The notes below the pieces were generated by a model, which worked only from the letters and a program-made list of their open reading frames with translations, searched no databases and was not told the origin of the DNA. Positions 931 through 30,803 of a stretch of DNA of 64,000 nt are shown piece after piece. Position 1 is the first letter of the stretch. Each line of letters begins with the position of its first letter. The stretch is taken from positions 1,914,001 to 1,978,000 of the forward strand of contig NZ_CP049740.1 in assembly GCF_011100465.1 (NCBI RefSeq), written 5' to 3'. Origin of the DNA: Jeotgalibaca arthritidis. GTDB taxonomy: Bacteria > Bacillota > Bacilli > Lactobacillales > Aerococcaceae. Position numbers and translations under genes: made by a program.

Positions 931-2530
<1,600 letters not shown>

Positions 2531-8010: not shown

Positions 8011-9858
8011 ATGAAATTAAGAAATGATATCAGAAACGTTGCAATTATTGCCCACGTTGACCATGGTAAAACGACTATGGTAGATGAACTGTTAAAACAA
8101 TCAGAAACATTGAATGAACGTACACAATTAGATGACCGCGTAATGGATTCAAATGATATTGAAAAAGAACGTGGTATTACAATTTTAGCTAAGAATACTG
8201 CTGTTTCATACAAAGGAACGCGCGTTAACATCTTGGATACACCAGGACACGCGGACTTTGGTGGAGAAGTAGAACGTATCATGAAAATGGTTGATGGTGT
8301 TGTTTTAATTGTTGATGCTTATGAAGGTACAATGCCACAAACACGTTTTGTATTGAAAAAAGCACTTGAACAAAAGTTAACACCAATCGTAGTAGTAAAC
8401 AAAATTGACAAACCAACAGCTCGTCCAGCTGAAGTGGTTGATGAAGTATTAGAATTGTTTATTGAATTGGGTGCGGATGATGACCAATTGGAGTTCCCAG
8501 TTGTTTATGCATCTGGTATTAACGGAACATCAAGCTTGACAGATGATCCAGCTGATCAAGAAGATACAATGGACTTCTTGTTTGATACTATTTTGGAACA
8601 TATTCCAGCTCCAGTTGATAATTCTGAAGAGCCACTTCAATTCCAAGTAGCTTTACTAGATTACAACGACTTTGTTGGTCGTATTGGTATCGGTCGTGTT
8701 TTCAGAGGAACAATTAAAGTTGGCGATCAAGTATCACTTCTAAAACTTGATGGCACAACTAAGAACTTCCGTGTTACAAAATTATTTGGTTTCTTCGGTT
8801 TAGACCGTGTAGAGATTGATCAAGCTGTAGCAGGAGATTTAATTGCTGTTTCTGGTATGGAAGACATTTTCGTTGGTGAAACAATCACACCGGTTGATCA
8901 TCAAGAAGCATTACCAGTGTTACATATTGATGAGCCAACACTACAAATGACATTCTTAACAAATAACTCACCATTTGCAGGTCGTGAAGGTAAACACGTT
9001 ACGTCTCGTAAATTAGAAGAGCGTTTGATGAAAGAATTGCACACAGACGTGTCACTTAAAGTTGAAAATACAGGTTCACCTGATGCTTGGATTGTATCTG
9101 GGCGTGGAGAGCTACACTTGTCAATTTTAATTGAAAATATGCGTCGTGAAGGTTACGAACTACAAGTTTCGCGTCCAGAAGTAATTATCAAGAATTTTGA
9201 TGGCGAACGTTGTGAACCATTTGAACGTGTACAAATTGATACACCGGAAGAATATATGGGATCTGTTATTGAATCATTGAGCCAACGTAAAGGTGAAATG
9301 CAGGATATGCAAAATACAGGAAATGGTCAAATTCGTTTGATTTTCCTTGTACCATCTCGTGGATTAATTGGTTATTCAACTGAATTCCTTTCATTGACAC
9401 GTGGTTATGGTATTATGTCTCATACGTTTGAAGCATACCTACCAGAATTAAATGGAAAAATTGGTGGCCGTCGTAATGGTGCACTTGTGTCAACAGAAAC
9501 TGGTAAATCAACAACTTACGGTATCATGGGTGTTGAAGACCGTGGAACGATCTTTATCGAGCCTGGTGTTGATATTTATGAAGGTATGGTTGTCGGAGAA
9601 AACTCCCGTGAAAATGACATTGCCGTTAATATTACGAAAGCAAAACAACAAACTAACGTTCGTTCTGCTAATAAAGACCAAACGAATGTTATCAAACGTC
9701 CACGTCAATTAACACTAGAAGAAACGATTGAATTCATGGATGAAGATGAATATTGTGAAATTACGCCAGTAAGCATCCGTCTACGTAAACAAATTCTAGA
9801 TAAAAATGAACGTGAAAAATCTGCTAAACGTAAGAAAAAAGCACTTGAACAAGACTAA
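8011..9858 (+). CDS. typA: Ribosome-associated translational GTPase TypA/BipA
   Basis: TypA/BipA is an EF-G-like GTPase that binds ribosomes and supports ribosome assembly and growth under stress and cold. The 615-residue protein has the G1 motif AHVDHGKT (14-21), DTPGH and NKID motifs, then domain 2 and EF-G-like domains III and V, and the TypA-specific C-terminal domain. I choose the ATG at 8011 because it follows GGAGGA at the right distance. An in-frame TTG 42 bases upstream would lie inside the leader hairpin and has no ribosome-binding site. It is monocistronic, between its own promoter and terminator. Confidence 0.96.
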   Translation: MKLRNDIRNVAIIAHVDHGKTTMVDELLKQSETLNERTQLDDRVMDSNDIEKERGITILAKNTAVSYKGTRVNILDTPGHADFGGEVERIMKMVDGVVLIVDAYEGTMPQTRFVLKKALEQKLTPIVVVNKIDKPTARPAEVVDEVLELFIELGADDDQLEFPVVYASGINGTSSLTDDPADQEDTMDFLFDTILEHIPAPVDNSEEPLQFQVALLDYNDFVGRIGIGRVFRGTIKVGDQVSLLKLDGTTKNFRVTKLFGFFGLDRVEIDQAVAGDLIAVSGMEDIFVGETITPVDHQEALPVLHIDEPTLQMTFLTNNSPFAGREGKHVTSRKLEERLMKELHTDVSLKVENTGSPDAWIVSGRGELHLSILIENMRREGYELQVSRPEVIIKNFDGERCEPFERVQIDTPEEYMGSVIESLSQRKGEMQDMQNTGNGQIRLIFLVPSRGLIGYSTEFLSLTRGYGIMSHTFEAYLPELNGKIGGRRNGALVSTETGKSTTYGIMGVEDRGTIFIEPGVDIYEGMVVGENSRENDIAVNITKAKQQTNVRSANKDQTNVIKRPRQLTLEETIEFMDEDEYCEITPVSIRLRKQILDKNEREKSAKRKKKALEQD

Positions 9859-28511: not shown

Positions 28512-29960
28512 ATGAATCTTTGGCAATGGATTATCGTCATTATATTTGCTATAAACTTTATCGGAGCAATCTACACTGTTTTTCACGAAGAACGGGATGT
28601 TCCAACAACTTGGGCATGGTTATTGACGCTCGCATTTATACCAGTCTTTGGTTTTATCCTGTATACATTTATAGGTAAAAAAATACCTGCAGATAAAATA
28701 TATGATATTAAAACGCAAAAGAGTTTAGGAATGTCCGAACTTGCAGGTTACCAAAAGGAAATGTTGGAAGAAAATGATCAAGTCATAACCGATGACGAGA
28801 GCGAAGTTAAACGTCATACGGCAATTTTGTTTTTAGAGAGCAATGAATCAATTCTAACAAGTGGAAACAAAGTTGAAGTAATGATTGATAATGTAGCTAA
28901 GTTCGAAAAAATTATCGAAGATATTATGAATGCACAACATCATGTTCACTTGTTATATTATACGTTTAGATCAGATGACCTTGGAAAACGTATTGTAGCA
29001 GCTTTAGAAAATCGTGCAGCTGCTGGGGTAGAGGTATTAGTTGTATTTGATGCTCTTGGATGTAGAGGGAATCACCCGAAATTCTTTAAGCGACTAGAAG
29101 AGTTGGGCGGAAAAACACTTGTGTTCTTCGGCTCCCGTATCCCATTTGTCAATTTACGTATGAACTACCGTAATCACCGTAAAATTATAGTTGTTGATAG
29201 TAAAGTAGCCTATATGGGTGGTTACAATATCGGTAATGAATATATTGGAGAAGGACGATTAGGGAACTGGCGTGATTCACATATTCGGATTCAAGGGAAT
29301 GCTGTGTTAACCTTACAGAGTCGTTTTTTTATGGATTGGAACGCCGTTGCATCTAAGCATGAACAACGTGCTTATGATGAGGAGTATTTTCCTATTTCAC
29401 CCAAAATAGGTGATACGGCAATGCAGATTGTCTCCAGTGGACCAGGTGATGATATTCAATCTATCAAAATGGGATTCATCAGGATGATTAGTCAGGCTAA
29501 ACACTCGATCTATATTCAAACACCTTATTTTATTCCGGATAATAGTGTTCATGAAATTCTTAAGATGGCTGCCTTGTCAGGAGTGGATGTGAACATCATG
29601 ATTCCGTGCAAGCCAGATCATCCGTTTGTTTATCGGGCAACCGAATATTTTGCTAAGGATATTATTAAGTATGGCGCGAAGGTTTATGTCTATGATGATG
29701 GATTCTTCCATTCGAAAGTTTTAATCGTCGACGGTGAAGTTGCTTCCATTGGATCAGCTAATATGGATGTTCGAAGCTTCAAATTGAATTTTGAAATTAA
29801 TTCATTTATTTATGACGATACAATAGCGATGGAATTGCAAACTAACTTTATCAATGACTTAGAAAAAAGTTTTATTGCTGATGAAGCCTATTTTGAAACC
29901 CAGTCAACTTGGCGAAAATTCAAACAGTATTTTTCACGTTTGTTATCGCCAATCTTGTAA
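28512..29960 (+). CDS. cls: Cardiolipin synthase
   Basis: Cls condenses two phosphatidylglycerol molecules to cardiolipin at the membrane. Two N-terminal membrane segments (about 3-25 and 33-55) are followed by two phospholipase D domains with complete HKD motifs: H222-K224-D229 (NHRKIIVVD) and H400-K402-D407 (FHSKVLIVD). The 482-residue length is standard. ATG lies eight bases after GGAG. Confidence 0.95.
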   Translation: MNLWQWIIVIIFAINFIGAIYTVFHEERDVPTTWAWLLTLAFIPVFGFILYTFIGKKIPADKIYDIKTQKSLGMSELAGYQKEMLEENDQVITDDESEVKRHTAILFLESNESILTSGNKVEVMIDNVAKFEKIIEDIMNAQHHVHLLYYTFRSDDLGKRIVAALENRAAAGVEVLVVFDALGCRGNHPKFFKRLEELGGKTLVFFGSRIPFVNLRMNYRNHRKIIVVDSKVAYMGGYNIGNEYIGEGRLGNWRDSHIRIQGNAVLTLQSRFFMDWNAVASKHEQRAYDEEYFPISPKIGDTAMQIVSSGPGDDIQSIKMGFIRMISQAKHSIYIQTPYFIPDNSVHEILKMAALSGVDVNIMIPCKPDHPFVYRATEYFAKDIIKYGAKVYVYDDGFFHSKVLIVDGEVASIGSANMDVRSFKLNFEINSFIYDDTIAMELQTNFINDLEKSFIADEAYFETQSTWRKFKQYFSRLLSPIL

Positions 29961-29967
29961 TGAAAAA

Positions 29968-30008
29968 AGAATAAGACTCAGTTGGCCTAGCCAGCTGGGT
30001 CTTATTCT
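29968..30008. terminator. Bidirectional terminator between cls and the LexA-controlled gene
   Basis: A 19-bp stem (29968-29986 with 29990-30008, two G-U pairs) has a 3-base loop. The run of six A at 29963-29968 gives the U-tract for the minus-strand gene. Confidence 0.88.
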
Positions 30009-30020
30009 AAGAAATGGTTA

Positions 30021-30350
30021 TTAAAGTTGTTGAATGGCCAATATTTGATCTATTTTTAGGATATAGACCATACCTTGGTCAGCTTTAAATGTGATTTGTT
30101 TGTTAGTATTCACTGATGAACCAAACGTTCCAATTAACTCAAGACGTTCGTACTGGGCATGACCAAGTTTACGTTCAATAGTAATAGAAACTTTTTTCTT
30201 TAGACCAGCAGCTTGGTTAGCGAAGCGTATAATTTGATAAAGGGGCATGACGGCGTGACTGAGTTCAGGATTAGTAGCAAGAGATAAATGTGATTGAGAG
30301 TAAGACGACTTTGCTATATTTAGTGAATGGGTATCATAATAATTTTCCAA
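30021..30350 (-). CDS. Small LexA-controlled protein, possibly YolD-like
   Basis: A 109-residue protein of unknown function. The TTG start is seven bases after a GGAGG site (30358-30362 on the plus strand), and promoter, ribosome-binding site and terminator are all well formed, so it is a real gene. Two LexA boxes flank its -10, so DNA damage should induce it. The second half (KKKVSITIERKLGHA, then a beta-rich end with ILKIDQILAI) resembles the YolD-like family often found with UmuC-type error-prone polymerases. No umuC gene is adjacent. The YolD assignment is a guess from pattern; the SOS control is much firmer. Confidence 0.7.
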   Translation of the reverse strand: MENYYDTHSLNIAKSSYSQSHLSLATNPELSHAVMPLYQIIRFANQAAGLKKKVSITIERKLGHAQYERLELIGTFGSSVNTNKQITFKADQGMVYILKIDQILAIQQL

Positions 30351-30361
30351 TTCAATACCTC

Positions 30362-30375
30362 CGAACGTTTGTTTG
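30362..30375 (-). promoter_or_regulatory. LexA box 2 (downstream operator)
   Basis: CGAACGTTTGTTTG fits the Gram-positive SOS box CGAAC-N4-GTTYG. It overlaps the expected start of transcription of the minus-strand gene, 30 bases centre-to-centre from box 1. Confidence 0.8.
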
Positions 30376-30386
30376 TATATATACTC

Positions 30387-30414
30387 ATTATAGAACGTTT
30401 GTTCGAGAAGTCAA
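30387..30414 (-). promoter_or_regulatory. SOS promoter of the minus-strand gene
   Basis: On the minus strand TTGACT and a perfect TATAAT are separated by 16 bases. The spacer contains LexA box 1. Confidence 0.85.
30392..30405 (-). promoter_or_regulatory. LexA box 1 (between -35 and -10)
   Basis: AGAACGTTTGTTCG is a near-perfect GAAC-N4-GTTC palindrome. Its placement between the promoter elements would block RNA polymerase. Confidence 0.85.
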
Positions 30415-30445: not shown

Positions 30446-30482
30446 AAAGAGGTAATTTTTTAATGAAAACGGGGTGATGGTT

Positions 30483-30789
30483 ATGAATACACTTGATGAA
30501 GTTAATAAAATTGAACAGGCTGCAAGAGATTTGGAAGCATTCTATCAAGAAAAAGTTGCGCAACTGCTAAAACAATCAGAGCAAAAAATTTCAGAAATGA
30601 AAGAACAGATTAATTTAAATATAAAGGATTACCAAGAAGAGCAACTAGTGCTAAAAAATAAAAAAATCAGTGATAGCGCAAAAATTTTAGAAGAACAACA
30701 AGCAAAAGAAATTGTCGACTTAAACCAGCAGTATCTGTCTAAAAAAGACCAGCTCGTTGATCGTGTCATTGAAGAGGTGATGAAACAAT

Positions 30790-30803
<14 letters not shown>
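30483..30803 (+). CDS. ntpF: V-type ATPase peripheral stalk subunit F (G/H type)
   Basis: A 106-residue, almost fully helical, Glu/Lys/Gln-rich protein. It forms the peripheral stalk with subunit E, as NtpF does in Enterococcus hirae. There is no catalytic motif; identity comes from coiled-coil composition, length and position as first gene of the operon. I choose ATG 30483, seven bases after GGGGTG; GTG and ATG codons nine and six bases upstream overlap that site. It overlaps ntpI by 14 bases. Confidence 0.85.

Follow-up and report, generated by a model that had tools for sequence, protein, structure and literature searches.

A small YolD-like gene with two putative LexA boxes in Jeotgalibaca arthritidis and other Lactobacillales

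A 109-residue gene of Jeotgalibaca arthritidis with two SOS boxes at its promoter raises the question of what it encodes and whether it belongs to the SOS response. The gene lies in a stretch of 64,000 nucleotides, called the window here, to which positions without a genome label refer. An earlier note, made from the letters of the window, had described it as a small orphan gene under double LexA control and as a possible stand-alone DNA-damage response factor. From the comparisons of promoters and genomes given below, the gene appears to belong to the SOS response across much of the order Lactobacillales, and "stand-alone DNA-damage response factor" is still its best short description.

Promoter and LexA boxes

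The coding sequence (30021..30350, minus strand; identified from the ORF list, the homologues and the structure model) encodes 109 amino acids and begins with TTG; ATG is found at the equivalent start position in five same-genus relatives. The promoter search placed a -35 hexamer TTGACT at 30409..30414 and a -10 hexamer TATAAT at 30387..30392, both on the minus strand, and the promoter TTGACT-N16-TATAAT has 11 of 12 consensus matches and a spacer of 16. SOS box 1, the 14-mer CGAACAAACGTTCT on the minus strand (30392..30405), occupies the -35/-10 spacer. Its 12-mer, GAACAAACGTTC, lies between both promoter hexamers and is the same as the 12-mer of the recA box of the J. arthritidis genome. SOS box 2, the 14-mer CAAACAAACGTTCG on the minus strand (30362..30375), was found in the sequence and is conserved in relatives; its 12-mer, AAACAAACGTTC, starts twelve bases past the -10 hexamer. 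Box 2 extends into the Shine-Dalgarno sequence GGAGG (30358..30362, minus strand), which has one base in common with the 14-mer, and it likely lies in the leader, directly past the probable, inferred transcript start. Gene, promoter and both boxes were all located where the earlier note had put them, and the boxes over the promoter are of the Gram-positive SOS type (GAACNNNNGTTC).

The centers of the two boxes are 30 bp apart, and it had been proposed that two LexA dimers would sit on the same face of the helix. This part of the proposal did not hold up: 30 bp corresponds to 2.86 turns at 10.5 bp, and the spacing across homologues ranges from 25 to 35 bp, with 27 and 28 bp the commonest (32 bp in two Trichococcus-type loci, L065 and L066), so that helical phase is not conserved. 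Judged from these upstream regions, box spacing seems to be governed by the promoter and leader rather than by helical phase.

Single near-boxes are frequent, with 20 occurrences of CGAACRNNYGTTYG at two or fewer mismatches in the window vs. 23.4 expected. Three box pairs were detected in the window (two 12-mers, each matching 7 or more of the 8 fixed bases, at a distance of 20-40 bp) vs. a mean of 0.165 in 200 shuffles, 31 of which held at least one pair by the same criterion. Besides the promoter pair, the window contains the pairs 4975/4999 and 35885/35918, each within a long ORF. A cluster of near-boxes at 9649-9692 was dropped since it is inside a long ORF, which we take to be typA-like. 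The strict pair GAACNNNNGTT-N9..25-NAACNNNNGTT had a single occurrence in the 2.35-Mb genome, the promoter of the 109-residue gene.

Because single boxes of such quality are no rarity in the window, conservation was tested instead. Upstream regions were read for 100 loci fetched from 99 other genomes, of which 98 belong to the 171 genomes with a match to profile A2 (see below) and one, G263, had a false match to the narrower profile A1. At 92 of the 100 loci, at least two boxes (7 or more of the 8 fixed bases matched) were present with a spacing of 25-35 bp, in agreement with the claim of double LexA control. The eight loci lacking a pair comprise one false homologue (L106, HemA-like in appearance), three canonical YolDs immediately behind a UvrX-type polymerase (L162, L165, and L184) and four homologues from family f8 that stand alone and carry no box (L156, L160, L161, and L164); the pair is kept in 92 of the 96 stand-alone members. 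With the promoter of the family gene masked, no box pair was detected at 912 other ORFs (at least 100 codons) of the 92 loci, and 30 of the 912 had at least one box. Conservation of the pair in the sequences of the homologue loci is the decisive evidence against chance.

Other promoter elements recurred to different degrees. A -10-like hexamer began 0-2 nt past box 1 in 87 of the 92 relatives, the same simple rules gave a -35-like hexamer in 46, and 62 had a Shine-Dalgarno-like string within 8 bases past box 2. Several members of genus g9 had three boxes. Promoter-like sequence was present, and the SOS box absent, at the four stand-alone f8 homologues, and all six f8 lexA genes examined had an SOS box. 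The f8 homologue genes seem, from their upstream regions, to lie beyond the control of LexA.

Boxes of the same type as those of the twin-box gene were detected at lexA (G000:C1:2241004, with its own box), at uvrX and at two genes that we take to be recA and uvrA in the J. arthritidis genome. The UvrX/UmuC-like polymerase (IMS domain, E 3.9e-28) is followed by its own YolD of 121 residues at G000:C1:35.6-37.3 kb, behind a promoter with a single box. The statement that a UmuC-type polymerase is absent was correct inside the window and incorrect for the genome as a whole. A further canonical YolD copy at G000:C1:1225160 (L194, about positions 990-1275, minus strand) has a DRGMKKW motif and its own SOS box, and ends at 79 codons vs. 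about 120 in the UvrX-linked copy; by appearance it is a stand-alone duplicate that has been truncated. A full-match SOS box was also found 84 bp upstream of a gene at G000:C1:1041437 (L193), by appearance the replicative helicase gene, which to our knowledge is not familiar as an SOS gene.

Homology to YolD and predicted fold

The gene is not an orphan as had been supposed and belongs to a homologue family spread over several families of one order. A first protein search of 100 related genomes gave matches in 15, including J. arthritidis. A profile of 11 homologues matched in 70 of 395 Lactobacillales genomes and the wider profile A2, built from 52 homologues, in 171 of the 395; relatives carrying homologues include Jeotgalibaca caeni and Trichococcus species. 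Searches of Pfam, NCBIfam, and PHROGs with the window protein gave nothing worth keeping (PLAT, at E 0.017, was below its cut-off), and Pfam and NCBIfam scans of the 52 members gave no fitting model. The gene family was undescribed in the literature searched, where the 13-operon LexA regulon of Lactobacillaceae, represented by examples (PMC3616900), may list the gene without a name.

The weak YolD-likeness reported for the C-terminal half of the protein was supported by profile comparison and not by the Pfam model PF08863 used alone. The HMM search with PF08863, which the earlier note had proposed, gave no match for the window protein and matched 1 of 52 family members (E 0.012), each protein alone being below the Pfam YolD cut-off; the same model had no match in the J. 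arthritidis genome at E 0.001. BLASTP gave no alignment of the window protein with the YolD that is linked to UvrX in J. arthritidis. When 378 ORFs of 12 loci were searched with A2, seven YolD ORFs were top-ranked, six of them among the ten PF08863 matches and the seventh the J. arthritidis YolD that is linked to UvrX. The four PF08863 matches from family f7 (L050, L051, L053, and L059) ranked among the decoys or were unreported by A2. Profile A1 was discarded since it failed to separate YolDs from decoys, whereas A2 separated these seven. In profile-profile comparison, hhalign gave 94.2 (E 1.1e-7; reversed controls 0.1) against all ten PF08863 matches and 0.6 when only the four f7 matches were used. 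A value of 97.6 (reversed controls 0.1-0.2) was obtained against ten canonical YolDs, a favorable choice because A2 already matched them, and the comparison with all ten PF08863 matches is the fairer one. Taken with the lack of a BLASTP alignment, the profile matches indicate that homology to YolD is visible only with profiles.

The N-terminal part of the protein differs from that of canonical YolDs. In alignment A3, the R, K, W, S, and H of the DRGxxKW...LSxH segment did not vary among the 10 canonical YolDs, and neither the DRG motif nor the KW motif was found in 91 distinct homologues (0/91 for each). By homology, the gene is a variant of the YolD kind and distinct from the standard PF08863 members; it is classed outside them because the Pfam cut-off, the N-terminal segment and the linkage to a polymerase were each tested and each found to be lacking. 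A tree of the 75 barrel columns, which grouped 8 of the 10 canonical YolDs with a support of 0.79 and placed two elsewhere, was too weak and was set aside as a basis for this assignment. Three of the f7 YolDs (L050, L051, and L059) have a DRGM- or DRKM-type N-terminal motif and a C-terminal part that profiles did not connect to other YolDs, and the PF08863 family may, on these comparisons, contain two different C-terminal domains.

The structure prediction suggested in the earlier note gave a helix and a barrel for both the 109-residue protein and a canonical YolD. The AlphaFold2 model of the 109-residue protein (mean pLDDT 82; residues 8-23 below 50) has a predicted helix at residues 37-50 and a five-strand Sm/SH3-like barrel at 53-108, the first 26 or so residues being of low confidence. 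In the canonical YolD model (mean pLDDT 74), helix and barrel follow in matching order, and an extra N-terminal helix of low confidence spans the DRGxxKW segment. The 109-residue model aligned with the WYL domain of BrxR (Z 9.4, rmsd 1.8, 69 aligned), the WYL domain of PafBC (Z 9.3, rmsd 2.1, 71 aligned) and Hfq (Z 7.9, rmsd 2.0, 61 aligned), and with a designed barrel at Z 9.3. The canonical YolD model aligned with ssDNA-bound DriD (Z 8.2, rmsd 2.5, 65 aligned) and Hfq (Z 8.0, rmsd 2.1, 59 aligned), and with a designed barrel at Z 8.5. These Z values may reflect nothing beyond the common small-barrel fold, and a Foldseek search with the predicted structure returned nothing at E 0.001 or better. 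In 14 of 91 homologues the helix begins with Q[LI]xLF, a string that in our view resembles a beta-clamp motif; the clamp-binding reading was put aside since the hydrophobic positions suit barrel packing and most members lack the motif. The alignments to WYL domains and Hfq fit the published assignment of YolD to the WYL/Sm superfamily (as outlined in PMC4012209 and PMC6511836).

Distribution and genomic neighborhood

Gene presence followed LexA. In a set of 198 Lactobacillales genomes, the gene (A2 match, E ≤1e-8) was present in 70 of 166 LexA-positive genomes and in none of the 32 that lacked LexA (defined by the absence of a PF01726 match below E 1e-10). The cut-offs for LexA, for gene presence and for UvrX (negative when the best match was weaker than 1e-45) were all chosen after the lists were seen, and the 198 genomes are mutually related, so a Fisher value on the LexA link is not a fair probability. 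In the family to which J. arthritidis belongs, the gene was carried by 21 of 22 LexA-positive genomes vs. 0 of 4 that lacked LexA; 17 of 18 genomes of family f2 and 26 of 26 of family f6, all LexA-positive, also had it. At E 1e-8 the gene was missing from 96 of the 166 LexA-positive genomes, which belong to families f3, f7, f8, and f9 plus one each in f1 and f2, and it is therefore not a universal SOS gene. A class-wide draw of 210 genomes, which included Lactobacillales without the gene, gave no match beyond J. arthritidis at E 1e-4.

A UvrX-like polymerase was also present in 65 of the 70 carriers. Among LexA-positive genomes the gene was commoner with UvrX (65/143) than without it (5/23), a comparison confounded by family membership, and it was found in 0 of 19 genomes that were UvrX-positive and LexA-negative. 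In the 198-genome set, f1 and f6 include four LexA-positive genomes with no UvrX-like polymerase, and all four carry the gene, two of them being incomplete assemblies (G218, 85%; G231, 72%). The box pair was present in the UvrX-lacking genomes G011, G071, G279, G046, G234, and G327. The gene does not require a UvrX-type polymerase, and no such polymerase was detected within up to 6 kb on each side in any of the 92 box-paired loci (one query, E 1e-3, with shorter flanks at contig ends).

Genome G178 contains four copies of a UvrX-like polymerase (C1:818237, 891360, 964483, and 980057), each with one in-frame TAG. At loci L052, L054, and L055 (genomes G085, G064, and G052), canonical PF08863 YolDs have a single SOS box directly upstream and no UvrX-type polymerase in their 1.5-kb flanks, and these genomes also carry the twin-box gene. 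Their layout indicates that a stand-alone yolD arrangement like that of Staphylococcus aureus also occurs in Lactobacillales.

The ORF list gives a convergent neighbor at 28512..29960 (plus strand), which we take to be cardiolipin-synthase-like (cls-like), and a divergent neighbor at 30474..30803 (plus strand), which presumably opens a V-type ATPase operon. A terminator-like hairpin (29984..30001, plus strand; one found, 0.2 expected) lies between the cls-like gene and the 109-residue gene. Of the 92 loci, 32 form a cluster with a like convergent neighbor and 29 a cluster with a like divergent neighbor. More generally, the downstream neighbor was convergent in 83 of the 88 loci that had one and the upstream neighbor was divergent in 88 of 92, which indicates that the gene is monocistronic. 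The neighbor sets, under names that we assigned by sequence, form an overlapping chain in which cls is paired with each of the V-ATPase gene, gmk and degV, gmk also with recN and an osmoprotectant-type permease, and the permease also with degV. The chain points to vertical descent of the gene in Lactobacillales. No tblastn match was found at E ≤1 in phage and plasmid records, so these records gave no sign of a mobile element. At nine loci (L115, L116, L148, L149, L151, L152, L155, L157, and L158) the gene is flanked by a convergent neighbor that we take to be recN-like and a divergent neighbor that we take to be gmk-like, and there it adjoins a DNA repair gene.

Possible roles and comparison with known systems

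Our preferred reading, held tentatively and at somewhat less than an even chance, is that the locus is a LexA-repressed, monocistronic SOS gene of the Lactobacillales whose product is a cut-down YolD that serves as an SOS accessory at damaged DNA, with no dedicated polymerase. A LexA dimer at box 1, in the footprint of RNA polymerase, would block binding of the polymerase, and a second dimer at box 2, at the start of the leader, would block early transcription; RecA-driven cleavage of LexA would then release the gene from a tight off state. Two LexA sites at colicin promoters are associated with tight repression and late induction in the account given by PMC4482635. The product would be soluble and would consist of a short variable tail, a helix and a YolD/WYL-superfamily barrel of the Sm/SH3-like type, without the DRGxxKW segment seen in YolDs linked to a polymerase. 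Working in trans at damaged forks, it would serve damage tolerance as an adaptor or small accessory subunit alongside RecA and the Y-family polymerase of the genome, be it UvrX-like or DinB-like. An accessory role not tied to one polymerase is suggested by the YolD fold, the SOS control and the persistence of the gene in some UvrX-less genomes. Several findings speak against it: the gene has no operon partner, J. arthritidis already has a canonical YolD behind UvrX, the signature segment of YolD is gone in all 91 homologues, the profile misses the f7 YolDs, four f8 homologues have no SOS box, and the gene is commoner with UvrX. YolD is considered a counterpart of UmuD in PMC6511836, in favor of the reading; against it counts the small effect, about 1.5-fold, that deletion of yqjX had on YqjW mutagenesis in the same account, by which even the role of YolD itself is tentative.

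A possible reading, to which we give roughly a third of our confidence, is an unnamed core SOS effector of the Lactobacillales, a YolD/WYL barrel under a double LexA lock, set apart from the polymerase and without the segment of polymerase-linked YolDs, that would act alone at damaged DNA, as an ssDNA-binding protein, a fork or clamp adaptor, or a checkpoint factor, with UvrX present or not. The product could instead be a dedicated, trans-encoded UmuD-like subunit of the UvrX-type polymerase with no separate role, as has been proposed for S. aureus yolD. Homology to YolD, the UvrX-like polymerase in 65 of 70 carriers and the separate loci of the stand-alone, LexA-controlled yolD and umuC of S. 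aureus (in the portions of PMC6511836 and PMC11442139 on these genes) are consistent with such a subunit, but J. arthritidis has a canonical YolD immediately behind UvrX, UvrX-less carriers exist, the gene is absent from all 19 UvrX-positive, LexA-negative genomes and the DRGxxKW segment is missing, and we regard a dedicated subunit as rather unlikely. About equally doubtful is a free nucleic-acid-binding barrel of the WYL/Sm-like type that would hold ssDNA or RNA and protect, signal or regulate during SOS. The WYL damage regulators PafBC and DriD bind ssDNA, and Hfq binds RNA. The models of the 109-residue protein (with BrxR, the PafBC WYL domains, and Hfq) and of the canonical YolD (with ssDNA-bound DriD and Hfq) align in a way that may argue for such a barrel, as does the membership of YolD in the WYL superfamily, whose members PMC4012209, in its discussion of them, proposes to bind nucleotides or nucleic acids. 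Designed barrels, however, scored equally high, Foldseek found no match, and the net charge of the homologues spreads from -11 to +12 with a median of +3.

A soluble SOS cell-division inhibitor in place of YneA, a toxic product silenced by the double operator, appears improbable. The YneA model was over its cut-off in 26 of the 198 genomes, all of family f7, and f7 has just two A2 matches, G086 (a UvrX-linked YolD with no box) and G267 (unfetched). No yneA adjoins lexA in the J. arthritidis genome, where the gene divergent from lexA is presumably yneF-like, and the lexA-divergent gene was un-YneA-like by eye in 35 lexA loci, J. arthritidis included (35 of 41 loci were parsed, the script having failed to locate lexA in the other 6). 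Two LexA sites at tightly and lately induced colicin promoters (as summarized in PMC4482635) would also suit an inhibitor. YneA and SosA, however, are membrane proteins according to the descriptions in PMC9578287 and PMC11442139, and no membrane-like segment was found in 91 homologues, whose largest 19-residue hydropathy mean was 1.33 (threshold 1.6). Homology to YolD indicates DNA repair instead. Families f3 and f8 are without YneA over the cut-off, yet their matches to the gene are weak or box-less, and the complementarity with YneA may stem from one clade.

The accessory reading bears on a gene found by profile match in nearly all sampled LexA-positive genomes of three families (21/22, 17/18, and 26/26), with a multiple LexA operator at every promoter examined among the stand-alone copies in these families. 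No Pfam or NCBIfam model fits the gene despite this near-universal presence. The parting of the YolD barrel from the UvrX polymerase would be a natural route to a role of the barrel's own. In many members box 2 of the twin-operator promoter ends within the Shine-Dalgarno sequence, and the promoter offers a compact example from nature of what is likely tight SOS control.

The twin-box gene resembles the YolD family (PF08863; YolD/YqjX/YozL of Bacillus subtilis) in its predicted helix and Sm/SH3-like barrel, its LexA control as read from sequence and its profile homology to most Lactobacillales YolDs compared, the four f7 YolDs having no detectable link to it. It differs in that it lacks the DRGxxKW N-terminal segment and an adjoining polymerase, its protein is below the Pfam cut-off, and the gene has two or more LexA operators. 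The PafBC and DriD barrels align structurally with the models (PafBC with the 109-residue protein, DriD with the canonical YolD), but both are multi-domain transcription activators, whereas the protein here would be the barrel alone. Like YneA and SosA, the gene is small, lineage-restricted and LexA-controlled by its boxes; unlike those membrane-anchored proteins, the twin-box family has no predicted membrane segment. A published precedent for its layout is the stand-alone SOS yolD of S. aureus (SACOL1986, PMC6511836; SAOUHSC_02144, PMC11442139), which, in the sections of these sources that concern it, is located apart from a Y-family polymerase and has a LexA box in its promoter. The S. aureus gene, likened here by description and not by sequence, has one SOS box and is regarded as a partner of UmuC, and it indicates that known YolDs, too, break the rule of adjacency to a polymerase.
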